Assembly (NCBI RefSeq): GCF_034057115.1
Contig: NZ_CP139195.1
Location: forward strand, 1,736,001 to 1,800,000
Length of the DNA stretch: 64,000 nucleotides
Direction of reading: 5' to 3'
Source: Pseudomonas sp. AN-1
GTDB lineage: Bacteria; Pseudomonadota; Gammaproteobacteria; Pseudomonadales; Pseudomonadaceae
Part shown: piece after piece, positions 5,963 through 34,493 of the stretch
Numbering within the stretch: position 1 is the first letter of the stretch
Layout of the letters: each line of letters starts with the position of its first letter
Translations under genes and position numbers: made by a program
Notes under the pieces: model-generated
Databases searched by the model: none
Seen by the model: the letters and a program-made list of their open reading frames with translations, nothing else
What the model was told of the DNA's origin: nothing

Positions 5963-6961
5963 TCAGAGCCAGCGCATGCGGCGAAACAGCCAGCCCTGGA
6001 ACAGGGCGATGCCAGCCATCAGCAGGCAGACCAGCAGGAAGCCGTAGGGATGCTCGGCGCCGGGCACCCCGCCGACGTTGATGCCGAGCAGGCCCGTGAC
6101 GAAGGTCATCGGCATGAAGAAGCCGGTGATGATGCCGAGCAGATACATGGTGCGGTTCATCCGCTCGGTCACCCGCCGATGCTCGGCCTCCTGCAGCAGG
6201 CTGACCCGCTCGCGCACCAGCTCGAGTTCCTCGAGGTGGCGGGTCAAGCGGTTGTGCAGCTCGTTCCAGTAGGCGGTATCGCTGTCCGCGAACCAGGACA
6301 GCGGGTTGCGCGCCAGCTGGGCATAGATCTCGCGCTGCGGCGCCAGGTAACGGCGCAGGCTGGCAGCCCGCCGCCGCAGGGCCAGCAGCAGATGACGGTC
6401 GGGCACCCCCTTCTCGTTCTGCTCGAGGGTTTCCTCGAGTTCGTCGAGCTGCTCGGCGATGCCCGCGACCAGCACATCCACCCCGTCGGTCAGCGCATGG
6501 GCGAGAAACAGCATGGCCTCCGAGGCCGTCTTCGGCCCGTCGCTGCGCTCGAAGGCGTCGCACAACGCGCCAGCCGCCTTGACCGGCCGCATGCGCAGGG
6601 AGATCACCTGGCGGGCATCGGCATAGATGCGCAGCGCCACCATGTCTTCCGGCGCAGCACCGGGATTGAGATTGACCCCGCGCAGGAACAGCAGCAGGCG
6701 CTCCCCCCCCAGCAGCACCAGGCGCGGGCGCGTCGCCTCTTCCAGCAGCAGGTCGCAGGCGAATTCGCCGAGGCCGCCGGACGCGCGCAGCCAGCGCTGC
6801 GCCGCAGGCACGCTGCGATCCCAGTGCAGCCAGAGGCTTTCCTGGGGGCGCAGATCGAGCACCGTCAGCTCGTTGCGACGGATCCGCTGCGCACCGCCCT
6901 CGCCGTCCAGCACGAAGCCGTAGACCAGCCCGCGCTCGTCGTCACCCTCGAAGGACTGCAT
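5963..6961 (-). CDS. cmaX: CorA/ZntB-family divalent cation transporter (CmaX)
   Basis: This 332-aa inner-membrane transporter belongs to the CorA superfamily. It has a long cytoplasmic N-terminal domain, a coiled stalk helix (about 180-270) and two C-terminal transmembrane helices (about 270-292 and 300-325). The pore-entry motif reads GINVGG rather than CorA GMN, which matches ZntB-type proteins that move Zn2+ rather than Mg2+. Its position next to crfX-cmpX-sigX corresponds to cmaX of P. aeruginosa. The substrate is inferred from the motif only. It is separated by 54 bp from crfX on the same strand and probably belongs to the same expression unit. Confidence 0.9.
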   Translation of the reverse strand: MQSFEGDDERGLVYGFVLDGEGGAQRIRRNELTVLDLRPQESLWLHWDRSVPAAQRWLRASGGLGEFACDLLLEEATRPRLVLLGGERLLLFLRGVNLNPGAAPEDMVALRIYADARQVISLRMRPVKAAGALCDAFERSDGPKTASEAMLFLAHALTDGVDVLVAGIAEQLDELEETLEQNEKGVPDRHLLLALRRRAASLRRYLAPQREIYAQLARNPLSWFADSDTAYWNELHNRLTRHLEELELVRERVSLLQEAEHRRVTERMNRTMYLLGIITGFFMPMTFVTGLLGINVGGVPGAEHPYGFLLVCLLMAGIALFQGWLFRRMRWL

Positions 6962-7023
6962 CGTCTCTCCAGCGGCTGCAGCCGCCAGGCCGGGTCAGCC
7001 CGGGCTGGCGGAGCCCTGCCCGC

Positions 7024-7509
7024 TTATTCGGGCATCTTCAGCTCTTCGTGGGACACGATGATGCCGTTGTTGTCGGCGTAGATGTAGTGGCCCGGGGTGA
7101 AGGTGACGCCACCGAAGGTGACCTCGACGTTGAGGTCGCCGATGCCGCGCTTCTCGGTCTTCATCGGGTGGGCGGCCAGCGCCTGCACGCCGAGATCGGT
7201 CTGTGCGATCACGTCGACATCACGGATGCAGCCGTACACCACGATGCCTTCCCAGCCGTTCTTCGCCGCCTTCTCGGCCAGCATGTCGCCGAGCAGGGCG
7301 CGACGCAGCGAGCCGCCGCCGTCGACCACCAGCACCTTGCCGCGACCATCCTGCTCGACCTGCTCCTTGACCAGCGAGTTGTCCTCGAAGCACTTGATGG
7401 TGACGATCTGGCCACCGAAGGAATCACGGCCGCCGAAGTTGCTGAACATCGGTTCGACCACGTCGACGTAGGGGTAGGCATCGCACAGATCGGGGGTCAC
7501 GTATTGCAT
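7024..7509 (-). CDS. rraA: RraA family protein (RNase E activity regulator / DMK methyltransferase-like fold)
   Basis: This 161-aa cytosolic protein is recognised from [13 protein letters not shown], the [18 protein letters not shown] segment (about 80-100) and YGCIRDVD (about 110-117), all diagnostic of RraA. In E. coli RraA binds RNase E and slows RNA decay; related proteins with the same fold are oxaloacetate decarboxylase/HMG aldolases, and the GD-x20-RD pattern of aldolases (GD near 94, RD near 115) is present here too, so enzyme activity cannot be excluded. It lies downstream of the esterase-like gene, separated by 179 bp. Confidence 0.92.
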
Positions 7510-7688
7510 GTCAGGTTCCTTGCGTTAGAGATCGACGCCACTGCGACTGCCATCATGGAGCGGCGGCAACCGCGGCAGCGGCGAACAGACAGCATTGATG
7601 GCACAAGCCCTGGCCAGCACAACCTCGCCAGCCCGGACACAGCACCATTCCTGCCGACGATCCTAGCCACAACGGCGCCAGCAGGGAA

Positions 7689-8672
7689 CTAGGCAAACGT
7701 ATGGGATTCCTCGCCCATCGTCTGCGGCAGCTGCCGGTGACGCAGCCAGTGCTCGAGCAGCGGCCAGATCTCGCGCGCGGCATGGCGCCCTGCCAGCAGC
7801 CCGGCATGACCATAGTCCTCGGCGAAACCTTCGGCCCGCCCCAGGCGCAGGTAGGCGCGCCGCGAGGAGCCGAAGCACTCGAGCAACTGCCGGCAGGCCT
7901 GTGCCGGATCGGTGTGATCGCCCGCCCCGGCCAGCGCCAGCACCGGTACCTCCACTGCAGCCAGCGCTGCCGCCCAGTCCTGGCGCCCGTCGGCGAAGCG
8001 ACCGAACGGACCGTACCAGCGCAGGGCGTCGCAGGCGATGCCGGCAGGCTCGTCCTCGGGACCGAGGCCAAGCCAGCCACCGCCCACCTGTTCGCGGCGG
8101 CGCAGCCACAGGCGCGCCCCCCAGCTCAGCGGCGGCAGCTTGAGCGACCAGTGCAGGTGACGGATCTGGCAACCCAGCAACACCAGCGAGGCCACCCGCA
8201 TCGCCGCCAGGTGCGCACCGGCCAGGGCGGCGGCGATGCTCAGGCCGCCCAGCGAGTGGCCCAGCCAGTGCGCCGGTTGCGCGCACTGCTCGTCGACGAA
8301 AGCGGCGATGGCCGGCAGATCGAAGCGCGCGTAATCCGCCACGCGGTTGCTCCGATACAGGCGATTGCGCGGCGACAGACCGTGGCCGCGCATTTCCGCC
8401 AGCCAGACGTCGAAGCCGGCCCGCGCCAGCCAGGCGCCCAGGCCATGGCCATGGGCCGTGTACCAGCAGCGCCGGTTGGCGAAGGCGCCATGCAGCAGCA
8501 CCAGTGGCTCGCCGCGCCGCGCGGCGGCCGCGTGACCGAGACGGGTCAGCGCCAGCGCAACAGAGCCGTCGGGGCTGTTGCCGGGCTTGAGGAGATAGAC
8601 GTCTTCGGTGAGGTCGCCACGCAGCTCGGCGCTGACCAGGGCGACGGGAAAGAGTTTGCTGCTGCTCTGCAT
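7689..8672 (-). CDS. Alpha/beta-hydrolase fold protein (esterase/lipase-like)
   Basis: The 327-aa protein has the oxyanion-hole segment LVLLHGAFANRR (about 58-68), the nucleophile elbow GHSLGG with Ser140, an acid-loop Asp near VLALAGAGDHTDPA and a late His in AEDYGHAGLLAG. No signal peptide or membrane helix is evident, so it is probably cytosolic. In P. aeruginosa a probable esterase gene occupies the same place between ppsA and rraA. The substrate is unknown. Its start lies 71 bp downstream of the ppsA stop, after a terminator, so it has its own transcript or depends on read-through. Confidence 0.8.
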   Translation of the reverse strand: MQSSSKLFPVALVSAELRGDLTEDVYLLKPGNSPDGSVALALTRLGHAAAARRGEPLVLLHGAFANRRCWYTAHGHGLGAWLARAGFDVWLAEMRGHGLSPRNRLYRSNRVADYARFDLPAIAAFVDEQCAQPAHWLGHSLGGLSIAAALAGAHLAAMRVASLVLLGCQIRHLHWSLKLPPLSWGARLWLRRREQVGGGWLGLGPEDEPAGIACDALRWYGPFGRFADGRQDWAAALAAVEVPVLALAGAGDHTDPAQACRQLLECFGSSRRAYLRLGRAEGFAEDYGHAGLLAGRHAAREIWPLLEHWLRHRQLPQTMGEESHTFA

Positions 8673-8695
8673 GCCATTCTTTTTCTGTACGCACG

Positions 8696-8722
8696 AAAAG
8701 GGCGGGATTGCCCCGCCCTTTT
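8696..8722 (-). terminator. Rho-independent terminator of ppsA
   Basis: AAAAGGGCGGG-ATTGC-CCCGCCCTTTT is a perfect 11-bp stem with a 5-base loop, lying just past the ppsA stop. The A/T ends make it functional leftward. Confidence 0.88.
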
Positions 8723-8743
8723 CCTACCGCTTCAGGACCTTGC

Positions 8744-11110
<2,367 letters not shown>

Positions 11111-11276
11111 GGTGACCTCTCCCCTATGTGGTGTATGCGCAAACCGCATTCTGGTCGGGCCCTGCTTGTGGCCGAGCCCCGGAAAATAAGTGACAATGCC
11201 GCCGTACGGCACACCGGGCGCTCCTGCGCGTCCGTGGATCCAGCCGGGACAACTCCCATCGCAAGGCCAGGCGCCC

Positions 11277-12095
11277 ATGAAACGCACCGCTTTCTTCATC
11301 TCCGACGGCACCGGCATCACCGCCGAAACACTCGGCCAGAGTCTGCTGGCGCAGTTCGAGAACATCAACTTCCACAAACTGACCCGGCCGTACATCGATA
11401 CCGTGGAAAAAGCCCGTGCGATGGTACAACAAATCAACGCCGCTGCCGAGGCGGACGGCGTGCGGCCGATCATCTTCGACACCATCGTCAACCGCGACAT
11501 CCGCGAGGTGCTGTCGCACTGCAACGGCTTCATGGTCGACATCTTCTCGACCTTCCTCTCGCCGCTGGAGCAGGAACTGGCCTCGCACTCCTCCTACTCG
11601 GTGGGCAAGTCGCACTCGATCGCGCACAACCCCAACTACATGGAGCGCATCGACTCGGTGCACTTCGCCCTCGACAACGACGACGGCGCCCGCACCCACT
11701 ACTACGGCAAGGCCGACCTGATCCTGGTCGGCGTGTCGCGCTGCGGCAAGACCCCCACCTGCCTGTACATGGCCCTGCAGTACGGCATCCGCGCCGCCAA
11801 CTACCCGCTGACCGAGGACGACATGGAGCGCCTGCAGCTGCCTGCCGCCCTCAAGGAGCACAAGGGCAAGCTGTTCGGCCTGACCATCGATCCCGACCGC
11901 CTGGCGGCGATCCGCAACGAGCGCAAGCCCAACAGCCGCTACGCCAGCTACGCCCAGTGCGAGTTCGAGGTCCGCGAGGTGGAGAGCCTGTTCCGCCGCG
12001 AGAACATCCCGTTCATCAATTCCACGCACTTCTCGGTGGAGGAAATCGCCGCCAAGATCCTGGTGGAAAAGGGCGTCGAACGCCGCCTCAAGTAA
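11277..12095 (+). CDS. ppsR: PEP synthase regulatory protein (bifunctional kinase/pyrophosphorylase)
   Basis: PpsR uses ADP to phosphorylate a threonine next to the catalytic histidine of PpsA, inactivating it, and uses Pi to reverse this by phosphorolysis. The 272-aa protein starts [13 protein letters not shown] at the ATG 11277 and has the P-loop-like GVSRCGKT at residues 152-159. The in-frame upstream extension from about 11190 lacks family similarity and overlaps the promoter region. The partner is present: Thr416-Cys-free context GGRTCH of the adjacent ppsA carries the Thr before the active His. The 166-bp divergent gap holds both promoters and the 10-bp palindrome GCCGTACGGC (11201-11210). 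Confidence 0.95.
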
Positions 12096-12118
12096 CTCCG
12101 GCAGGTTCGACGGCACCG

Positions 12119-12155
12119 AAGGAAAAGGCCCGAAACCCGGGCCTTTTCCTTTTTT
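12119..12155. terminator. Bidirectional terminator (ppsR / prpF)
   Basis: GGAAAAGGCCCG and CGGGCCTTTTCC form a long stem followed rightward by TTTTTT (12149 on). It lies between the convergent ends of ppsR and prpF. Confidence 0.9.
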
Positions 12156-12173
12156 GCAGCGCAGGCGCGTCGC

Positions 12174-13352
12174 TTAGAAGACGTCGCCCGGCACGCGGAC
12201 GAAGCCTTCCATCAGCACGCGGGCGCTGCGGCTCATCACCGCCTTGGTGGCGGTCCACTCGCCGCCCACGATCTCGGCCGCCGCGCCGACGCGCAGGGTG
12301 CCGGACGGATGGCCGAAGGTGACCGCGTCGCGCTGGCCGCCACCGGCCGCCAGGTTGACCAGGGTGCCCGGCACCGCCGCGGCGGTGGCGATGGCGACCG
12401 AGGCGGTGCCCATCATGGCGTGGTGCAGCTTGCCCATCGACAGCGCGCGCACGCAGCAGTCGATCTCGCCGGCGGCCACGGTCTTGCCGCTGGAGGCGAC
12501 GTAGTCGGTGGCCGGCGCGACGAAGGCGATCTTCGGCGTGTGCTGGCGGGCAGCCGCTTCGGCGATGTCGGCGATCAGGCCCATCTTCAGCGCGCCGTAG
12601 GCACGCATGGTCTCGAAGCGGGCCAGCGCCTCGGCGTCGGCGTTGATGTCCTTCTGCAGCTCGGTGCCGGTGTAGCCGATGTCGGCGGCGTTGACGAAGA
12701 TGGTCGGGATGCCGGAGTTGATCATGGTGGCCTTGAAGGTGCCGACGCCCGGCACTTCCAGGTCGTCCACCACGTTGCCGGTGGGGAACATCGAACCTTC
12801 GCCGTCGGCCGGATCCATGAACTCGATGACCACCTCGGCGGCCGGGAAGGTCACGCCGTCCAGTTCGAAGTCGCCGGTTTCCTGCACCTGGCCGTCGGTG
12901 ATCGGCACGTGGGCAATGATGGTCTTGCCGATGTTCTTCTGCCAGATGCGCACGGTGCAGATGCCGTTCTGCGGGATACGCGCAGCATCGACCAGACCGC
13001 CGGCGATGGCGAAGGCGCCGACCGCCGCGGTCAGGTTGCCGCAGTTGCCGGACCAGTCGACGAACGCCTTGTTGATCGCCACCTGACCGAACAGGTAGTC
13101 GACGTCATGCTCCGGCTGCTCGCTCCTGGCGACGATCACGGTCTTGGAGGTGCTGGAGGTCGCGCCACCCATGCCGTCGATCTGCTGGCCGTACGGATCG
13201 GGGCTGCCGATCACCCGCAGCAGCAGCTTGTCGCGGGCCTCGCCCGGCACCTGACAGGCCTGCGGCAGGTCCTGCAGACGGAAGAACACACCCTTGCTGG
13301 TGCCACCACGGATATAGGTGGCAGGAACGCGAATCTGGGGTACATGCGCCAT
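12174..13352 (-). CDS. prpF: 2-methylaconitate cis-trans isomerase PrpF
   Basis: PrpF isomerises the AcnD product (trans-2-methylaconitate) to the cis form used by aconitase in the 2-methylcitrate cycle. The 392-aa protein has the diaminopimelate-epimerase-like fold signatures YIRGGTSKGVFF (about 13-24), WSGNCGNLTAAVGAF (about 99-113) and LHHAMMGTASVA. It starts MAHVPQIRVPATY at 13352, 106 bp after acnD. It is last in the operon. No prpD follows; the next gene downstream is the convergent ppsR. Confidence 0.95.
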   Translation of the reverse strand: MAHVPQIRVPATYIRGGTSKGVFFRLQDLPQACQVPGEARDKLLLRVIGSPDPYGQQIDGMGGATSSTSKTVIVARSEQPEHDVDYLFGQVAINKAFVDWSGNCGNLTAAVGAFAIAGGLVDAARIPQNGICTVRIWQKNIGKTIIAHVPITDGQVQETGDFELDGVTFPAAEVVIEFMDPADGEGSMFPTGNVVDDLEVPGVGTFKATMINSGIPTIFVNAADIGYTGTELQKDINADAEALARFETMRAYGALKMGLIADIAEAAARQHTPKIAFVAPATDYVASSGKTVAAGEIDCCVRALSMGKLHHAMMGTASVAIATAAAVPGTLVNLAAGGGQRDAVTFGHPSGTLRVGAAAEIVGGEWTATKAVMSRSARVLMEGFVRVPGDVF

Positions 13353-13458
13353 GGGAATCTCGTCCTCATGAGACCGCGCCGCCGGACGGCGGCGCGGGGA
13401 TGGAAGTGCGCGGACTGCCGGCCCGGCCGCCGTGCGCGGACCGGACCGGCAGGAGCGA

Positions 13459-16062
13459 TCAGGCCTGGCCGAGGAAGTCCTTGGCGAAACGCTGCAGCAC
13501 GCCGCCGGCCTGGTACACGCTGACTTCGGCGGCGGTGTCGAGGCGGCAGGTCACCGGCACGCGGGTTTCTTCGCCAGTGCGCTTGCGGATGACCAGGGTC
13601 AGGTCGCAGCGCGGCGACAGCTCGCCCTCGATGTCGTAGGTCTCGGTGCCGTCGAGGCCGAGGGTCAGGCGGGTGGTGCCCGGCTTGAACTCGACCGGCA
13701 ACACGCCCATGCCGACCAGGTTGGTACGGTGGATGCGCTCGAAGCCTTCGGCGACGATCACTTCCACGCCGGCCAGGCGCACGCCCTTGGCCGCCCAGTC
13801 GCGCGAGGAACCCTGACCGTAGTCGGCACCGGCGACGATGATCAGGTTCTGCTTGCGGTTCATGTAGGTTTCGATGGCTTCCCACATGCGCATGACCTGG
13901 CCTTCCGGCTCGACGCGGGCCAGCGAGCCCTTCTTCACCTGGCCGTCGACCACGCACATCTCGTTGACCAGCTGCGGGTTGGCGAAGGTGGCGCGCTGGG
14001 CGGTCAGGTGGTCGCCGCGGTGGGTGGCGTAGGAGTTGAAGTCCTCCTCCGGCAGGCCCATCTTGGCCAGGTACTCGCCGGCCGCCGAGCTGGCCAGAAT
14101 GGCGTTGGACGGCGACAGGTGGTCGGTGGTGATGTTGTCCGGCAGGATCGCCAGCGGACGCATGCCCTTGAGGGTACGCTCGCCGGCCAGCGCACCTTCC
14201 CAGTACGGCGGACGGCGGATGTAGGTGGACATCGGGCGCCAGTCGTACAGCGGGCTCTTGGCTTCCTCGATGCTGCCCAGGTCGAACATCGGGATGTAGA
14301 CCTGCTTGAACTGCTCCGGCTTCACCGAGGCGGCGACGATGGCGTCGATCTCCTCGTCGGACGGCCACAGGTCCTTCAGGGTGATCGGGTTGCCGTTCGC
14401 ATCAAAGCCCAGCGCGTCCTTCTCGATGTCGAAGCGCACGGTACCGGCGAGGGCGTAGGCGACCACCAGCGGCGGCGAGGCCAGGAAGGCCTGCTTGGCG
14501 TACGGGTGGATACGGCCGTCGAAGTTGCGGTTGCCGCTCAATACGGCGGTGGCGTACAGGTCGCGGTCGATGATTTCCTGCTGGATCTGCGGATCCAGGG
14601 CGCCGGACATGCCGTTGCAGGTGGTGCAGGCATAGCCGACGATGCCGAAGCCGAGCTTCTCCAGCTCCGGCAGCAGGCCGGCCTCTTCCAGGTACAGCCT
14701 GGCGACCTTGGAGCCCGGGGCGAAGGAAGTCTTGACCCACGGCTTGCGCACCAGACCCAGCTCGTTGGCCTTCTTGGCCAGCAGGCCGGCGGCGACCACG
14801 TTGCGCGGGTTGGAGGTGTTGGTGCAGCTGGTGATGGCGGCGATGATCACCGCGCCGTCCGGCAGCAGGCCCTCGGCCTCTTCGGCGCGGGCGGCGGCCA
14901 GCTTGGCCTCGTCGGCGATGCCGCGCTCGTGCAGGGCCGAGGTCGGCAGGCGACGGTGCGGGTTGGACGGGCCAGCCATGTTGCGTACCACGCTGGACAG
15001 GTCGAACTCGAGCACGCGCTCGTATTCGGCGCCGGTCAGCGCGGAGGCCCACAGGCCGGTCTCCTTGGCGTACTGCTCGACCAGGGCGACCTGCTCCGGC
15101 TCGCGACCGGTCAGCTTGAGGTAGTCGATGGTCTGCTGGTCGATGTAGAACATCGCCGCGGTGGCGCCGTACTCCGGGCACATGTTGGAGATGGTGGCGC
15201 GGTCGCCGATCGACAGGCTGTCGGCGCCCTCGCCGAAGAACTCGACGTAGGCACCCACCACGCGCTCCTTGCGCAGGAACTCGGTCAGCGCCAGGACGAT
15301 GTCGGTGCAGGTGATGCCGGGCTGGTGCTTGCCGGTCAGCTTGACGCCGACGATGTCGGGCAGGCGCATCATGGACGGATGGCCGAGCATCACGGTCTCG
15401 GCTTCCAGGCCGCCGACGCCGATGGCGATCACGCCGAGGGCGTCGACGTGCGGGGTGTGCGAGTCGGTACCGACGCAGGTATCCGGGAAGGCCACGCCTT
15501 CGCGGGCCTGGATCACCGGCGACATCTTCTCCAGGTTGATCTGGTGCATGATGCCGTTGCCGGCCGGGATCACGTCGACGTTCTTGAATGCGGTCTTGGT
15601 CCACTCGATGAAGTGGAAACGGTCTTCGTTGCGGCGGTCTTCGATGGCGCGGTTCTTGGCGAAGGCGTCCGGATCGAAGCCCGGGGCTTCCACGGCCAGC
15701 GAGTGGTCGACGATCAGCTGGGTCGGCACCACCGGATTGACCTTGGAGGGGTCGCCGCCCTGTTCGGCAATCGCATCGCGCAGACCGGCCAGGTCGACCA
15801 GCGCGGTCTGACCGAGGATGTCGTGGCAGACCACGCGGGCCGGGTACCACGGGAAGTCCAGGTCACGCTTGCGCTCGATGATCTGCTTCAGCGAGTCGGT
15901 CAGCATGGCCGGCTCGCAGCGGCGCACCAGTTGCTCGGCCAGCACACGCGAGGTGTACGGCAGCTTGTCGTAGGCACCGGGCTGGATGGCTTCGACGGCC
16001 GCGCGGGTGTCGAAATAGTCCAGGCTGGTGCCGGCCAGTTGCTTGCGATATTCAGTATTCAT
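13459..16062 (-). CDS. acnD: Fe/S-dependent 2-methylcitrate dehydratase AcnD
   Basis: AcnD dehydrates 2-methylcitrate using an aconitase-type [4Fe-4S] cluster. The 867-aa protein has the aconitase layout: GTDSHTPHVDALG, cluster ligand regions [10 protein letters not shown] and GYACTTCNGMSG, then the swivel domain with [15 protein letters not shown] and [17 protein letters not shown] chose the ATG at 16060-16062 (MNTEYRKQLAGT) because the family begins there; an in-frame TTG 15 bases earlier would add MSLRP. It is placed between prpC and prpF, which distinguishes it from the housekeeping AcnA at 39402. Confidence 0.95.
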   Translation of the reverse strand: MNTEYRKQLAGTSLDYFDTRAAVEAIQPGAYDKLPYTSRVLAEQLVRRCEPAMLTDSLKQIIERKRDLDFPWYPARVVCHDILGQTALVDLAGLRDAIAEQGGDPSKVNPVVPTQLIVDHSLAVEAPGFDPDAFAKNRAIEDRRNEDRFHFIEWTKTAFKNVDVIPAGNGIMHQINLEKMSPVIQAREGVAFPDTCVGTDSHTPHVDALGVIAIGVGGLEAETVMLGHPSMMRLPDIVGVKLTGKHQPGITCTDIVLALTEFLRKERVVGAYVEFFGEGADSLSIGDRATISNMCPEYGATAAMFYIDQQTIDYLKLTGREPEQVALVEQYAKETGLWASALTGAEYERVLEFDLSSVVRNMAGPSNPHRRLPTSALHERGIADEAKLAAARAEEAEGLLPDGAVIIAAITSCTNTSNPRNVVAAGLLAKKANELGLVRKPWVKTSFAPGSKVARLYLEEAGLLPELEKLGFGIVGYACTTCNGMSGALDPQIQQEIIDRDLYATAVLSGNRNFDGRIHPYAKQAFLASPPLVVAYALAGTVRFDIEKDALGFDANGNPITLKDLWPSDEEIDAIVAASVKPEQFKQVYIPMFDLGSIEEAKSPLYDWRPMSTYIRRPPYWEGALAGERTLKGMRPLAILPDNITTDHLSPSNAILASSAAGEYLAKMGLPEEDFNSYATHRGDHLTAQRATFANPQLVNEMCVVDGQVKKGSLARVEPEGQVMRMWEAIETYMNRKQNLIIVAGADYGQGSSRDWAAKGVRLAGVEVIVAEGFERIHRTNLVGMGVLPVEFKPGTTRLTLGLDGTETYDIEGELSPRCDLTLVIRKRTGEETRVPVTCRLDTAAEVSVYQAGGVLQRFAKDFLGQA

Positions 16063-28073: not shown

Positions 28074-31000
28074 ATGCCCAGCCTCAACCGCATCATCCTG
28101 ATCAACACCCACCTCGCCGGCGTGGTCGAGCTGCTGGTCGACGACCACACCAACATCTGCGGTACCAACGCCTCCGGCAAGACCACCCTGCAGCGCCTGG
28201 TGCCGGTGTTCTACGGCGAATACCCGAGCCGCGTGGTGCCGGCCACCCGCGACAGCTTCGAGCGCTGGTACCTGCCGACCGAGCAGAGCTTCATCGTCTA
28301 CGAATACCAGCGCATGGACGGCGAGGCCTGCCAGACCATCCTCGCCGCCAGCAGCGACGGCCGCGGCGTCGACTACCGCCTGGCGCACAAGGCCTTCGAG
28401 CTGGACGACTACATCAGGAGCCGCCAGGGCGATGTCGTGGTCTGCCGCAGCATGGCCGAGCTGGGCCGCCACTTCCGCCAGAGCGGCGTGGCGGTCAGCA
28501 ACCAGCTGAACACCCGCCAGTACCGGGCGATCATCCAGAACGACCGCAGCCTGCTGGCCGCCGACAGCCAGCGCGGCGAGCTGCGCCAGCTGGCCCGGCA
28601 GTTCTCGCTGTGCGCCGGCGAGCACAGCCTGCGCCACATCGAGAAGCTGGTGCGCGCCGTGCACTCGCGCGAGGGCAAGATGGAGACGGTCAAGTCGATG
28701 GTCGCCGCGATCCTCGAGGAGGACGGCGTGGCGCCGCCGACCACCGGGCTCAGCCCGCAGCGGGTCGAGGACTGGATCCGCGACAGCCAACTGATCCAGG
28801 GCTTCGCCGCGCTGCGCCCGCAGTTCGCCCGCCTGGAGCACGACTTCGCCGAGCTGCAGGCCGGCGAGACGCGCCTGGCCGGCCTACTGCAGGCCTTCCA
28901 GACCGACCAGCCGCTGCTGTTCGCCCGCCAGGAGCAGCTGCGCCTGGCACTCGAGCAGAGCGGCTTCGAACTCAAGCTGCTGGAGGACGACTGGAAGGAC
29001 CAGCGCGATGCCCTCAGCCTCGAGCTGTCGCAGGTACAGGCACGCATCGGCAGCGCGGAAACCCAGCTGCAGCACATCGAGGAGCAGTACCAGCAGTACC
29101 TCGACGCCGACATCGACCAGGCCAAGGCCGACCTGGAGAAGCTCGACGGCTGGCGCCTGGAGCTGGACAACCACAAGGAACGCCTGCGCCTGCTCACCGA
29201 ACAGCACGCCGATGTGCAGAACGCCTACCTGGAGCGCAAGCAGATCGTCCAGGAGCGCCAGCAGGAAGCCGTCGACCGCCTGCACGAGCAGGAAAGCCGG
29301 GTGCGCGACGAACTGGCCGAGCGCACCCAGCACAAACACGAGGCCCTCGCCCAGCTCGACCGCGCCTTCGCCAACCGCCGTCAGGAGGCGGAAAGCGCCA
29401 GCCGCGAGCGACGCCACGCCCTCGAACTGGAGAAGAGCCGCCAGGAACAGCTGATCGCCAGCTTCGCCTACAGCGAGGAGGAAGCGCTGAGCCTAGAGAT
29501 TCTCGACCGCCGCCAGGAGGAGGCCGAGGAGCAGCGCGACGCCGCCGCCCAGCAGCTCGACGCCCTGCAGCAGCAGGAGCGCCTGCTGCTGCGCCAGCGC
29601 GAGGAGGCTGCCCGGCAGCTCGCCCAGGCCAGCCGCCGGGTCGGCGAACGCCAGCGCGAGCTGGACGACGCCGAGCGCCTGCTCTACCCCGGCCAGCACA
29701 GCCTGCTGGAGTTCCTGCGCCGCGAGCAGCCGGGCTGGGAGCAGCAGCTCGGCAAGGTGATCGAGCCGAGCCTGCTGCAGCGCAGCGACCTCAAGCCGGC
29801 CCTCAGCGAGGCGCCGGCCGACAGCCTGTACGGCGTGCAGCTCGATCTCGCCGCGCTGGCCACCCCGGAGCACGCCGCCGGCGAGGCCGAGCTGCGCCAT
29901 CGCGTGCAGCTGGCCGGCGACAACCTGCAGGACGCCCGCAACCAGCAGGAGCAGGTGGAGAGCCAACTGGGCGAACACGGCGCCGCGCTGGAAGAGCTGA
30001 ACACCCGCCTGGTGCTGGCGCGCACCGCCGTGCAGACCGCCAAGGACAACCGCCAGCGCCTCAGGGAGGAACGCGCCGCGCTCAAGGAGCGCCTCGACGC
30101 CGCGCTGGCCGAGCGCCGCCAGAGCGCGCGCCAGCAACTCGCCGGCCTGGATGCCGCCCTCGCCCAGCTCAAGCTGGAGCACGCCAGCCTGCTGGAGGAG
30201 CTGGACAGCCAGCACCGCGAGGCGCGCCTGGACACCAGCGCGCACTGGCAGCAGGTGATCGGCGACCTGGAACAGCGCCTGGCCCATCTGCGCGGCCAGC
30301 TGGAGGAGCAGCGCGCCCAGGGCAAAGCCGAGCTGGCCGCCTGCGAGAGCTGGTACCGCAACGAGCTGAAGTCGCGCGGCGTCGACGAGGCGCAACTGAT
30401 CCAGCTGAAGAGCGGCATCCGCGAGCGCGAGCAGCGCATCCGCGACACCGAGGCGCGGCGTGCCGAGGTGCACCGCTTTGATGAGTGGTACGCGCTCACC
30501 TGGCTCAAGCGCAAGCCGCAGCTGCAGGAGGATCTGATCGAGCACCGGCGCGAAGCGACCGACCTCAAACTGCGCCTGGACACCGCCACCCAGGCCTTCA
30601 AGAGCCGCCGCGACGCACTGGAGCAGCAGCGCCGCGAGGCCCTGCAGGCCCAGGGCCGGCTCGGCGAGCAGCTCGACAGCCTCAAGGGGCTGATCAAGCG
30701 CCTCGGCGAACTCAAGCTGCCGCGCGACGGCCAGACGCCGGCCGGCGAGCTGGACGAGCGCCTGCGCCTGGCCCAGGAGCTGCTGCACGGCCGCGAGAAC
30801 CTGCTCGCCGCCATCCGGCAGCACGTCGAGCGCTTCGACAGCCTGATCGCCGGCAAGGCCGGCTCCAGCCTGACCGAGACCTGGGAGCGCAGCCGCGAGG
30901 AGTGCAGCCTGGTCAGCGAGCGCGGCGTGCCGACCCTCGACTACCGCCGCCTGGTGCCGGCGCTGGCCCAGTTGCTCAACGTGCTGGTGCCGCAGAGCAT

Positions 31001-31748
31001 CACCGCGCTGCGCGAGCAGGGGCGGATCTTCGGCAAGGACCTGTTCGACTACTTCGCCGTGCTGGCCGACATCGACCAGCGCATCGCCAGCCAGAGCGCG
31101 CGGATCACCCGCGAGGTCGGCGAGGAGCTGTTCCTCGACGGCGTGTCCAACTCGGCGGTGACCATCCGCTCGAAGATCACCGAACTGGAGTTCTGGCCGG
31201 AGCTGCGCGCCTTCGTCGCCGCCTACCGCGAATGGGAGGACAGCGGCTTCAGTGATCTGCCCGGCGAGGACTACACCGGCAGCATGCGCCGCGCCCTCGA
31301 GGTGCTCGGCCGCTCGGCGCTGACCAGCGGCATCGCCGGCCTCCTGGAGATCGAGCTGCGTCTGCGCGAGGGCAACAGCGACCTGGTGATCCGCACCGAC
31401 CGCCAGCTCAACGAGTCGTCCAGCCACGGCATGGCCTACCTGATCCTCTGCAAGTTCCTGCTCGCCTTCACCCGCCTGCTGCGCGGCCGCGCCCCGGCGA
31501 CCATCCACTGGCCGATCGACGAGCTGGGCACCCTGCACCACAGCAACGTGAAGAAGATCTTCGACGCCTGCGCCAGCAACGCCATCCGCATCCTCGGCGC
31601 CTTCCCCAACCCGGACTCCGAGGTGCTGGCGCTGTTCAAGAACCGCTACATCGTCGACAAGCAGAGCCGCCGGCTGCAGGTGGTCAAGCCGCGCCTGGAC
31701 GTGGTCGGCGAACGCCTGAAAGCCCGCCTGAGCGAGGAGACCGTCTGA
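28074..31748 (+). CDS. SMC-like ATPase of a Wadjet/MksBEFG-type system (JetC/MksB-like)
   Basis: The 1224-aa protein has an ABC-type head split by a very long coiled coil. The N-terminal Walker A is GTNASGKTT at residues 30-38. The coiled coil spans roughly 230-980, rich in Glu, Gln, Arg and Leu. The C-terminal signature-like segment [12 protein letters not shown] lies near 1113 and Walker B HWPIDELG near 1146-1153. The C-terminus ends [15 protein letters not shown]. It resembles MukB/MksB/JetC ATPases that load on DNA and extrude loops. AAGGGAG precedes the ATG at 28074. It is first of four overlapping genes, whereas canonical Jet and Mks operons put the ATPase after the kleisin and MukE-like genes. 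Confidence 0.8.
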
Positions 31749-32389
31749 TGCTGTCGAACAAGGGCAAGGTCATCGAGCGCCTGCTGCAGGGCGCCTTCAT
31801 CTGCCGCACCAGCGACGAGGAAGGCTGGCGCTTCTTGAAGAACCCGGCCAACCGCGAGCAGGTCGACGACTACCTGGCCACCCTCAACCGCAGCGTGGCC
31901 GCAGTCGGCGCCGGCAGCGAGGCCGAGGTGTTCTACTGTGCGTATCGCCAGCTCGGCGAGACCGAGCGGCGGGTGGTCGGCCAGCAGTTCCGCGACGTCT
32001 GCAACGCCCTCACCCCGCTGGTCGAGTGGCTGCTGCTGGTCCAGCAGGCCGGCGCCCAGGACGCGCCGCTCACCGAGGGCAGCCCGATCCGCCTCAACGA
32101 GCTGCAGAGCATCGTCGAGGACACCCCTGCGTTCCGCGAGCAGCTGGCGCGCATCAGCCACTACCGGCTGTTCGGCTCGACCAGCGCCAGCGTCGACGCG
32201 CAGATCAAGCAGGTGTTCAAGCGCCTGTGCGAACTCGGCTACCTGCTGCGCCCCAACCCGGAGAAGCAGATCTACCTCGGCACCGGCAAGCTGGACTACC
32301 TGTACGAGGTGATCCGCTTCATCGACGAGGCCGAGGGCCTCGCGCTCGAGGAGCGCGCCGAGCTGGCCAGCCAGGGGAGCCTGCTGTGA
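31748..32389 (+). CDS. MukE/MksE/JetB-like small subunit
   Basis: This 213-aa protein begins [25 protein letters not shown] and contains tandem winged-helix-like segments (EEGWRFLKNPANREQVDDYL, about 24-43; QIKQVFKRLCELGYLLRP, about 152-169). That size and predicted fold are typical of MukE/JetB subunits, which bridge the kleisin and the ATPase heads. The ATG shares its A with the stop of the ATPase gene (TGATG at 31746-31750). The assignment rests on length, gene order and the WH pattern rather than on a diagnostic motif. Confidence 0.6.
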   Translation: MLSNKGKVIERLLQGAFICRTSDEEGWRFLKNPANREQVDDYLATLNRSVAAVGAGSEAEVFYCAYRQLGETERRVVGQQFRDVCNALTPLVEWLLLVQQAGAQDAPLTEGSPIRLNELQSIVEDTPAFREQLARISHYRLFGSTSASVDAQIKQVFKRLCELGYLLRPNPEKQIYLGTGKLDYLYEVIRFIDEAEGLALEERAELASQGSLL

Positions 32390-33603
32390 GCGGCAACCTG
32401 CACCAGGCCGGGGTGCGCTTCCTGCGCCAGCTGGGCCGCCACGCCGAGACCATCATGGACGCCTACCTGGCCGGTGCGGTCGGCGACGACGCCCTCGAGC
32501 CCGGCGTGCAGGAGCGGCTGGTCAAGGACGGCGTGCTCTACCGCCCGGAGCCGGGCGCCGACCTGCACCTGCGCCGGGTGGTGCGCGCCCTGCTCGAGGA
32601 GGCCCTGCGCGACGACCGCAACCGGCAGATCGACGCCAACACCGGCAGCACCCTGGCCACCTTCAAGACCCTCGCCGCCCACTACAAGGAGGCGCGCCAC
32701 CAGGGCGACTTCGCCGCCGCCGACGCCTACCTGGCCGACCTGCGCGAGCACGTCTACAGCTTCTGCGAGGGCCTCGGCCACAGCGTGCGGGTGCTGTGGG
32801 GGCGGATCAACAACGAGTTCGGCTACGTCGGCAGCCTCGGCGCCAAGATCCGCGAGAACGAGCTGGCCCAGGCCCAGGTCAGCGAGCTGCTGGCCGGCCT
32901 GGAGCTGATCGACTTCAGCGAACTGGCGGAAACCGCCGGCGAACTGCGCGAGCTGCGCCGCCTGCTGGTCACCCGCCTGCAGCGCCAGGTCAGCGGCTGC
33001 TGCCAGGAGCTGGGCGTGGTGCAGGCTCGCCTGCTCGAACTGCTCGGCCGCTTCCGCAAGATCCAGGGCCGCACCCGCCTGCTGCGCGGCTGGCTGCTGC
33101 ACGCCGAACAGCAGCCCGACTACCGCCCGGGCAGCCACACTGCGCGCCCCGAGATGCCGCAGCTGCTCAACCTCGCCGAGGCGCTGATCGCCCCGGCGAC
33201 GGCCAACCTTCACGACGGCAGCCAGGAGGCCGAGCTGCTCGCCCTCGCCGCGCAGATCCGCGCCCAGCGCGAGGAACGCCCGGCCGCGCCGCTGGCCGAG
33301 GCCGGCGAGCTGACCCTGGGCGAGGTGGAAAGCTTCGAGGTACAGCCGAGCCCCATCCAGCTCGCCGTGCAGGAGTACCTCTGCGCGGTGATCGAGAGCG
33401 GCCAGCCGGTGTCGGCGCTGACCTGGTGGCGCGAGCACGAGCTGTCCTGCGATCCCGAGAGCTGGCTGTACCAGGTGATCGGCGGCTACGAGGCGCTGCC
33501 CGACGAGCAGCGCGCCTGCTTCCAGCTCGACCCCGACGGCGAGCCGCACCCGGTGTTTTCCGGCAACTTCATCGTGCGGGACCTCTCGCTGTGGCTGGCC
33601 TGA
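32386..33603 (+). CDS. Kleisin-like subunit (MukF/MksF/JetA-like)
   Basis: The 405-aa protein is mostly helical, with an N-terminal part (LHQAGVRFLRQLGRHAETIMDAYL) that could form a winged-helix/dimerisation region, central helices (about 95-220, for example ETAGELRELRRLLVTRLQRQ) and a C-terminal winged-helix-like part (PIQLAVQEYLCAVIESGQPVSALTWW, about 320-345). I chose GTG at 32386-32388, which overlaps the preceding TGA and has GGGGAG 8 bases upstream. The frame is open further upstream, but that part lies wholly inside the MukE-like gene. As third gene of the cassette the kleisin role is inferred from context and size. Confidence 0.55.
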   Translation: MSGNLHQAGVRFLRQLGRHAETIMDAYLAGAVGDDALEPGVQERLVKDGVLYRPEPGADLHLRRVVRALLEEALRDDRNRQIDANTGSTLATFKTLAAHYKEARHQGDFAAADAYLADLREHVYSFCEGLGHSVRVLWGRINNEFGYVGSLGAKIRENELAQAQVSELLAGLELIDFSELAETAGELRELRRLLVTRLQRQVSGCCQELGVVQARLLELLGRFRKIQGRTRLLRGWLLHAEQQPDYRPGSHTARPEMPQLLNLAEALIAPATANLHDGSQEAELLALAAQIRAQREERPAAPLAEAGELTLGEVESFEVQPSPIQLAVQEYLCAVIESGQPVSALTWWREHELSCDPESWLYQVIGGYEALPDEQRACFQLDPDGEPHPVFSGNFIVRDLSLWLA

Positions 33604-34421
33604 GCCGCAGCCACCACAACGCCGTGCACCGCCTGCTGCGCGAGCGTCTGGACAAGGTGGAACTCAACCGCACCTGGCAGCAGCTGCACGCCCACTTCGA
33701 GCTGGGCCGCCCCTCGGGCAAGTGGCTGCACTTCGACGCCGAGACGCGCCGGCTGCTGCAGCGCCTGGCGCGGGACGAGTGGGGCTTCGATCCGCTGGCG
33801 GGCGTACCGGAGGGCAGCCGCCGCGAGGTCGCCTCGCGCGCCGTCGACGAGAAGATCGCCCGCCGCCGCCCCGACGACGACTTCGTGCTGGTCAAGGGCA
33901 CCCTGCCCGCGCCGCTGCCGACCCTCGCCCGCGGCCTGAGCCTGCGCGTGGCGCTGCCGCAACTGGACACCGCGGCCATCGCCCGGCTGGTGCTGATCGA
34001 GAACCTCGACAGCTTCGACGACTGGGAGGACTACCCGGCACCGCCCGAACTGGCCGGCAGCCTGATCGTCTACCGCGGCCATCGCGGCCTGGCCCGCGGC
34101 GCCCGCCAGTTGCTGGAACGGCTGCCGGCGGCCACGCCGGTGGTGGTCTTCCCCGACTACGACCCGGCCGGCCTGGCCATCGCCGCCAGCCTGCCGCGCG
34201 CCGATGCACTGCTGCTGCCGGAGCTGGACGAGGCACTGCTGGCTTGCGGCAGCCGAGCCCACTTCGACCGCCAGTTCCGCCAGGCACGCCAGCTGGAGGA
34301 AGCCGAGCTGGGCGGCTGGCGGGCCGTATGGGAGGAAATGAAGGGGCAGCGGGTCAGCATCAAGCAGCAGCACATGCTGGCGCTGGGTGCGCACCTGCGC
34401 CTGGTGCCGCTGCGGGCCTGA
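33591..34421 (+). CDS. Toprim nuclease-like subunit (JetD/MksG-like)
   Basis: This 276-aa protein has a C-terminal Toprim-type pattern: an acidic Glu137 in LIENLDSF, then IVYRGHRG (about 159-166) and the DxD motif in VVFPDYDPAGLA (Asp189, Asp191). In Wadjet and MksBEFG systems the equivalent subunit cleaves plasmid DNA trapped by the SMC complex. The N-terminal half (RSHHNAVHRLLRERLDKVELN) is basic and could contact DNA. I chose GTG at 33591, overlapping the previous stop by 13 bp; GTG at 33624 is an alternative. The end is followed by a strong terminator. Confidence 0.65.
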   Translation: MAGLSRSHHNAVHRLLRERLDKVELNRTWQQLHAHFELGRPSGKWLHFDAETRRLLQRLARDEWGFDPLAGVPEGSRREVASRAVDEKIARRRPDDDFVLVKGTLPAPLPTLARGLSLRVALPQLDTAAIARLVLIENLDSFDDWEDYPAPPELAGSLIVYRGHRGLARGARQLLERLPAATPVVVFPDYDPAGLAIAASLPRADALLLPELDEALLACGSRAHFDRQFRQARQLEEAELGGWRAVWEEMKGQRVSIKQQHMLALGAHLRLVPLRA

Positions 34422-34445: not shown

Positions 34446-34474
34446 AGCGAGGCCCGCACTGGGCGGGCCTCGCT
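34446..34474. terminator. Terminator of the SMC-Toprim operon (and thrH)
   Basis: AGCGAGGCCCGC-ACTGG-GCGGGCCTCGCT is a perfect 12-bp stem between convergent genes, followed by TTT rightward. Confidence 0.8.
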
Positions 34475-34493
34475 TTGACGTTCGACGCAGCGC

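Follow-up and report, generated by a model that had tools for sequence, protein, structure and literature searches.

An SMC-first DUF3584/DUF7281 operon of Pseudomonas sp. AN-1 belongs to a lineage probably apart from Wadjet, MksBEF and MukBEF in which the nuclease is recurrently absent

MksG has been described as the nuclease of the plasmid-restricting MksBEFG complex (PMC10123090), and both MksG and JetD of the Wadjet (JetABCD) systems are reported to be activated by circular DNA (PMC10512200). Nuclease-free MksBEF acts in chromosome segregation in Pseudomonas aeruginosa (PMC7485682), and in a review this complex was suggested to have arisen from JetABCD by loss of JetD, with the same direction being speculated for MukBEF (PMC10586767). 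The locus considered here is a four-gene operon at positions 28074–34421 of a 64,000-nucleotide stretch of the Pseudomonas sp. AN-1 genome (RefSeq assembly GCF_034057115.1, contig NZ_CP139195.1, positions 1,736,001 to 1,800,000; hereafter the window), encoding an SMC ATPase, a KITE subunit, a kleisin-like protein and a Toprim nuclease. With a probability of roughly 0.57, we read it as the descendant of a Wadjet/MksBEFG-like ancestor, of which the SMC–KITE–kleisin core would have become a resident chromosomal condensin (a function that we infer) in the clade holding the window copy, with the nuclease now being optional.

The Pfam matches of the first and last proteins are not due to chance, since the SMC matched PF12128 (DUF3584) with 1197.8 bits over residues 8–1195 and the nuclease matched PF23947 (DUF7281) with 185.1 bits. 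The Walker A (GTNASGKT, residues 30–37) and Walker B (ending in D1149-E1150) motifs that an earlier sequence-only reading had seen in the 1224-amino-acid SMC were indeed present, together with a signature-like SSSHG (S1116, S1117 and G1119; residues ~1115–1119) absent from that reading. Among the 134 SMC rows of the family tree (139 before five of less than 1100 amino acids were dropped, i.e., L059, L077, L109, L255 and L265), K36 was found in all 133 readable ones, D1149 and E1150 in all 134, and S1116 in 132. The Walker A lysine, the Walker B D/E and the signature glycine were intact in every readable row, including those from loci without a nuclease.

To place the subunits, family profiles were compared with type I and II Wadjet, MksBEF and MukBEF proteins taken from loci, with reversed alignments serving as controls. 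The SMC heads matched the MksB type over most of the N-head (5.7e-11 and 1.4e-6) and a broad part of the C-head (5.6e-6 and 2e-6), whereas the match to type I JetC covered only 31 columns at Walker A of the N-head (4.8e-7) and was poor for the C-head (0.046). Values for MukB were 3.6e-5 and 1e-4, and those for type II JetC 1.2e-5 and 0.29. In a tree of SMC heads the family formed one clade (99.9/100) outside MksB (100/100), MukB (100/100) and type I JetC (100/100). This tree holds 16 of the 134 family rows (the most divergent, i.e., L065, L106, L107, L108 and L186, were left out), two MukB sequences and one each of type II JetC and Smc, and does not fix the order of the deep branches. A search for JetC3 of type III Wadjet yielded only weak, mostly coiled-coil matches, several of them to open reading frames (ORFs) reading by eye as Smc, and type III is therefore missing from the tree. 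Among the types compared (MksB, MukB, and JetC of types I and II), the family SMC thus has a head clade of its own and lies neither within MksB nor within a Wadjet type, as the sequence-only reading had surmised in proposing a distinct lineage.

Matches of the window KITE to PF13835 and PF21980 (MksE) stayed under the respective cut-offs, and the members from a Marinobacter plasmid and a phage passed the 27-bit cut-off of PF21980 with 49.2 and 28.8 bits, respectively. By hhalign it aligned nearly full length and collinearly with MksE (4.8e-4; reversed 0.31) and type I JetB (7.4e-4; reversed 0.32), with little likeness to MukE (0.043) or type II JetB (0.3); for scale, the accepted pair of MksE and type I JetB scored 4.3e-3. 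The kleisin-like protein had no Pfam match above cut-off, and when each of the four family profiles was run against PDB sequences, no kleisin was matched, the outcome being either nothing or weak matches judged to be coiled-coil or chance. Its N-terminal part did match MksF over 98 columns, with an E-value of 1.2e-4 (reversed control 0.14) in the best of four comparison sets (one MksF, 0.032; the L098/L099 pair, 0.0034; eight MksF, 0.0019; all ten, 1.2e-4), while the accepted pairs MksF/type I JetA and MksF/MukF scored 0.065 and 0.77, respectively. This is suggestive of a kleisin, though not proof; of the subunit composition proposed at first sight, the SMC, the KITE and the Toprim protein therefore stand, and the kleisin is probable.

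The Toprim-like residues first noted in the nuclease recur throughout the family, with E137 in 86 of 86 readable rows and D189 plus D191 in 87 of 87 (counting three DUF7281 genes outside the operon family, i.e., L098, L099 and L100). The E and DxD of a JetD-type Toprim nuclease are thus in place, and the window protein has all catalytic residues. With type I JetD (5e-8) only the Toprim part aligned, and the family nuclease, the shortness of which had been remarked from the sequence, is about 100–130 amino acids shorter; type II JetD scored 1.3e-3. In an Acinetobacter plasmid relative, the nuclease passed the DUF2399 cut-off and remained just below that of JetD_C. The closest nuclease relative (3.4e-21) is the DUF7281 nuclease of two operons with an MksB-type SMC, L098 (G005:C19:31000-50000, 9449–14938) and L099 (G176:C8, 3678–9227). 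These operons have the canonical order (kleisin, KITE, SMC of 917–924 amino acids, nuclease) and only weak, partial matches in PADLOC. In them, the DUF7281 nuclease family accompanies another type of SMC. In L100, pieces of DUF7281 lie among genes reading by eye as transposases.

All 137 loci with the three core genes (a count that includes two genomes twice) begin with the SMC gene, followed on the same strand by those of the KITE and the kleisin, with the nuclease, if present, coming fourth. ATPase-first is therefore a family trait and not a quirk of the window genome, which extends an observation already made on the window and differs from the kleisin-first JetA-B-C-D of Wadjet. Type I Wadjet has the same four kinds of subunits, but no DUF3375 kleisin was found in the window's genome and the family showed no match to a type I kleisin profile. 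Type II Wadjet (TIGR02680) likewise joins an SMC-type ATPase to a Toprim nuclease, but has DUF2397 and DUF2398 subunits, the order A-B-C-D and a separate SMC branch (from one sequence only). MukBEF, a chromosome organiser, shares the SMC–KITE–kleisin trio, but lacks a nuclease and has a 1486-amino-acid SMC; a search of the whole genome that holds the window gave no match to PF04310, the MukB N-terminal family, at E-values up to 0.001. On sequence grounds, the operon would thus encode a four-subunit complex, with a predicted kleisin, of a lineage apart from Wadjet I/II, MksBEF and MukBEF.

Detection tools for known systems agree with this placement. PADLOC gave only short or marginal matches for the four proteins (best JetD, JetB and JetC, with E-values of 5e-4 to 3e-3), none of them exceeded any NCBIfam family cut-off, and the JetA–D models of types I–III did not recognise the operon, while fully recognising the type II operon present elsewhere in this genome. 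That complete JetA2–D2 operon (L187, G000:C1, about 1297294–1312428) is located near Cas6 and Cmr1 (type III-B CRISPR-like). In another Pseudomonadaceae locus (L188, 7033–10619), canonical MksE and MksB were present without a PADLOC match at 1e-5.

MksBEF(G) is likewise close, in that it combines an SMC with an MksE-type KITE and an MksF-type kleisin and occurs in nuclease-plus and nuclease-minus forms. Several distant MksBEF families have been reported as found (PMC7485682), and the DUF3584 family may have been mentioned among them; it is possible, although with the odds against it, that the broadly defined MksBEF families of 2011 already include it, and that only the pattern of nuclease loss is new. 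The KITE, the kleisin and most head profiles do match the MksE, MksF and MksB types best. However, the order B-E-F-G is unlike mksFEB(G), the SMC has 1224 instead of about 944 residues and falls in a clade separate from MksB, and the nuclease is DUF7281 as opposed to the DUF3322/DUF2220 of MksG (PMC10123090). Within the papers covered, a literature search (DUF3584, DUF7281, MksBEF or condensin with Shewanella, and Wadjet/kleisin/KITE) returned no account of an SMC-first DUF3584/DUF7281 family. Such an identity would in any case be compatible with a condensin core and an optional nuclease.

Within the window clade of the SMC tree (133 rows in total), 58 rows have the nuclease and 50 do not (57 and 49 of 106 rows when L053/L069 and L071/L206, which are the same genomes twice, are counted once), and no fewer than 14 changes are needed to explain this distribution, or 20 losses assuming an ancestral nuclease. 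Outside the clade, 24 of 25 rows have it. The Shewanellaceae loci alone divide into 41 with and 35 without, and the 10 Alteromonadaceae-type rows (three Alteromonadaceae interleaved with seven of family f141) all lack it. Closer to the window, in the same genus, the kleisin gene of L050 (genome G005) is followed by thrH on the opposite strand, with no nuclease gene between them. An artefact of contig edges is possible only for L256, one of the 35, the sequence of which ends 815 bp after the kleisin gene; it was not taken as evidence and was removed from the tree counts. In the pairs L197/L201 and L199/L200 the SMCs are 97–100% identical and the members differ in nuclease presence. Nuclease remnants of 37–41 residues were found in three of 53 nuclease-less loci (L200, L070 and L115), indicating that the direction there was loss. 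A step like the loss of JetD appears to have been repeated many times between near relatives in the window clade. One Shewanellaceae genome (G974) has two members (L218 and L264), i.e., a nuclease-less copy of the window clade and, from a distant clade, one that has the nuclease.

Selection on the core and the nuclease was estimated from the ratio of nonsynonymous to synonymous substitution rates (dN/dS; Nei–Gojobori script, pairs picked from the tree), which is rough here because dS approaches or exceeds 1 in many cases. For the SMC, nuclease-less pairs gave 0.019–0.053 in the nine of 11 that could be computed, the other two being saturated, and 12 nuclease-bearing pairs gave 0.013–0.185, with the two highest values (0.127 and 0.185) in Pseudomonadaceae. 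The nuclease itself reached 0.111–0.292 in the 10 of 12 pairs that could be computed, each of which had a lower value for its SMC, and nucleases differed by 23% at 2–5% SMC divergence (median, 17 pairs). As judged from these substitution patterns, the core is maintained without the nuclease, and the nuclease evolves faster than the core. These properties also bear on the idea that the complex processes chromosomal DNA, its Toprim protein acting, as a topoisomerase VI A-like or repair nuclease, on the chromosome and not on plasmids. A marginal, sub-cut-off TOP6A-Spo11 Toprim match, the description of MksG as a Topo VI A homolog (PMC10123090) and the housekeeping neighbours of the operon (see below) would suit it. 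A nuclease missing from about half of the clade and evolving several times faster than the core is nevertheless unlike a core repair enzyme, and we hold this idea to be improbable.

Counting genomes with an SMC above the Pfam cut-off among those sampled, the family was present in seven of eight from the window's genus, 38 of 198 from Pseudomonadaceae, 10 of 369 from the class and 22 of 398 from the phylum, and in 75 of 77 Shewanellaceae. The two Shewanellaceae without it belong to genus g491, with genome sizes of 2.3 Mb at 95% completeness and 1.3 Mb at 62%. A window-clade copy is present in 63 of the 75 carriers and only a deep-branching one in 11, while the split SMC of L255 was not placed. 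Given this near-universal presence in the sampled Shewanellaceae, and an intact and conserved core in the roughly one half of window-clade rows without a nuclease, the original view of a simply plasmid-cutting system is not supported in that form.

Some of the Pseudomonadaceae copies, and some of the Shewanellaceae ones, share a chromosomal site. The 59 loci examined include 23 distinct ones from Pseudomonadaceae, of which seven, counting the window operon, are flanked by pabB and thrH/cysH and one more shares pabB only; in Shewanellaceae, 49 of 76 loci share a common downstream ORF within the short stretches fetched.

MukB exceeded its cut-off in only one of 44 genomes (G801), with a sub-cut-off match in G836, and 41 of the 44 carry the family SMC. 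Among 17 Pseudomonadaceae genomes, MksE (E <1e-39) was found in seven (G002, G008, G010, G012, G014, G015 and G017) and the family SMC above its cut-off in nine, which amounts to a Fisher p of 0.015 for mutual exclusion (0.0023 without the copy in G010), values that are indicative only, the genomes being related.

Mobile relatives were sought with tblastn (E up to 1e-10) and occurred in 32 of 72,556 plasmid records (six covering at least 80% of the query) and in one of 50,697 phage records; two viral-contig scans gave no relatives, and no near-identical DNA of the window operon was found in plasmids. Operons were examined in four of the 32 plasmid records (Marinobacter pMAQU02, Acinetobacter pB18-1, a Vibrio vulnificus plasmid and Aromatoleum plasmid 1), and these as well as the phage operon (Dolichospermum phage Dfl-JY45, 209 kb, 86907–93262) hold the complete gene set arranged as in the window, the nuclease being of the DUF7281 family. 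In the cyanobacterial phage record (L286, PP438435.1; operon at 5974–12329 of the locus), all four proteins are annotated as hypothetical. In a tree of 44 of the 134 rows plus five mobile members, the plasmid members fell outside the window clade, and the phage member was placed at its base (100, Shimodaira–Hasegawa-like approximate likelihood-ratio test), on a long branch that makes its place unsure.

The completeness of these mobile operons would fit a purely Wadjet-like plasmid defence, in which the copies without a nuclease would be remnants in decay or would rely on a nuclease encoded elsewhere. The full set of catalytic residues in the window copy points the same way, as does the fact that two of five nuclease-less genomes searched whole with PF23947 (G005 and G176) hold a DUF7281 gene at another locus, as part of a different SMC operon. 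The low dN/dS values and conserved ATPase motifs of the nuclease-less cores, the uniform absence of the nuclease from the Alteromonadaceae-type rows, the presence of the SMC in nearly all sampled Shewanellaceae and the lack of any PF23947 match in the other three genomes (G183, G336 and G544) speak against it. Pure defence is in our view unlikely, but less so than it would be without the 11 Shewanellaceae genomes that have a deep-branching copy only, with the nuclease in 10, and without G005; these same observations lowered our confidence in the condensin reading and in the transition described below.

Several further points weigh against a condensin core with an optional nuclease. With regard to the nuclease, its presence was scored only beside the core, and the genome-wide search covered five nuclease-less genomes. 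Divergent copies can escape PF23947, as in G367, where the family profile gave a weak neighbouring match and PF23947 none. Moreover, 50 of the 53 nuclease-less loci have no remnant, so that the direction of change there is deduced, and two loci of one genus that fall outside the window clade, L110 and the broken L059, are without the nuclease. With regard to the core, SMC dN/dS in mixed plus/minus pairs ranged from 0.013 to 0.264 in the five of six that could be computed, including 0.264 and 0.101. The kleisin call stands on one weak N-terminal match, and the comparisons with type I JetA (0.13; reversed 0.12) and MukF (0.26) were no better than chance. The Shewanellaceae copies are spread over several clades, and in one of the 11 genomes with a deep-branching copy only, the nuclease could not be judged.

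The exclusion of other condensins is not clear-cut either. G801 has both MukB and the family SMC, and G010 alone has both MksE at the above threshold and the family SMC, its copy being deep-branching. G005 carries a window-clade member next to an MksB-type operon (KITE 5.7e-34), and counting it raises the Fisher p to 0.057, or 0.015 without the copy in G010. For the Shewanellaceae, the comparison with other condensins covers MukB only; 20 of these genomes, along with seven of f141, had none above cut-off.

On balance, we favour a resident core with an optional nuclease, which would work as follows. With the kleisin and the KITEs closing it, the DUF3584 dimer would load on DNA and extrude loops with ATP, and a substrate that can be extruded fully, i.e., a small closed circle such as a plasmid, would be cut by the kleisin-held Toprim nuclease. 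In the window clade, the SMC–KITE–kleisin core would also be a resident chromosome-organising complex (condensin) parallel to MksBEF, and the nuclease would be an optional part that evolves fast, retained by some species and lost on many occasions in others. Two modes would then exist, namely an ancestral four-gene nuclease complex that still moves with plasmids and one phage, and a chromosomal form derived from it, with a resident motor and repeated loss of the nuclease. Loop extrusion, plasmid cutting and the condensin role are carried over here from the related systems. A defence-to-condensin transition in progress, leading from a four-gene system that is whole on plasmids and phage to a resident gammaproteobacterial condensin that has shed its nuclease at least a dozen times, goes further, and we regard it as tentative, at somewhat less than even odds.

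The features of the window operon are listed in Table 1. The four overlapping genes are as first noted, with their ORFs, starts and overlaps unchanged. The SMC gene runs from an ATG, with a Shine-Dalgarno-like AAGGGAG upstream, to its stop at 31748, and the kleisin-like and nuclease genes start with GTG. The SMC and KITE genes overlap in TGATG, the KITE and kleisin-like genes in GTGA, and the kleisin-like and nuclease genes by 13 bp, an overlap repeated exactly in 20 of the 41 nuclease-bearing Shewanellaceae loci. Broken copies occur elsewhere in the family, with the SMC split by a stop in L059, the nuclease in two frames in L052 and the SMC in two frames in L255. The window operon is flanked by pabB, msrQ, msrP, thrH, cysH and pdxB, and these neighbours rule out a defence island.

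Table 1. Features of the SMC-first operon and its downstream flank (positions in the window)
Feature	Position	Strand	Evidence
SMC ATPase (DUF3584; MksB/MukB/JetC-like), 1224 amino acids	28074..31748	+	PF12128, conserved motifs, head profiles MksB-type
KITE subunit (MukE/MksE/JetB-like), 213 amino acids	31748..32389	+	sub-cut-off PF13835/PF21980, hhalign
Kleisin-like subunit (putative), 405 amino acids	32386..33603	+	weak N-terminal MksF profile match, constant operon position
Toprim nuclease (DUF7281; JetD/MksG-like), 276 amino acids, E137/D189/D191	33591..34421	+	PF23947, hhalign
Possible terminator hairpin, between operon and thrH	34446..34476	.	12-bp perfect inverted repeat ending TTT

Whether the MukBEF and MksBEF condensins descend from nuclease-armed defence complexes has been raised as an open question in a review (PMC10586767), and the species pairs with near-identical SMCs that differ in the nuclease make this defence-to-condensin question directly testable. 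If our reading is true, such sister species would be natural nuclease-plus/minus pairs. The results also point to an SMC complex, present in 75 of the 77 sampled Shewanellaceae genomes, for which none of the families searched has a name. Because the window copy has an intact nuclease, plasmid cutting is plausible in its host by analogy with MksG and JetD, and the resident complex may affect plasmid use in some Pseudomonadaceae.

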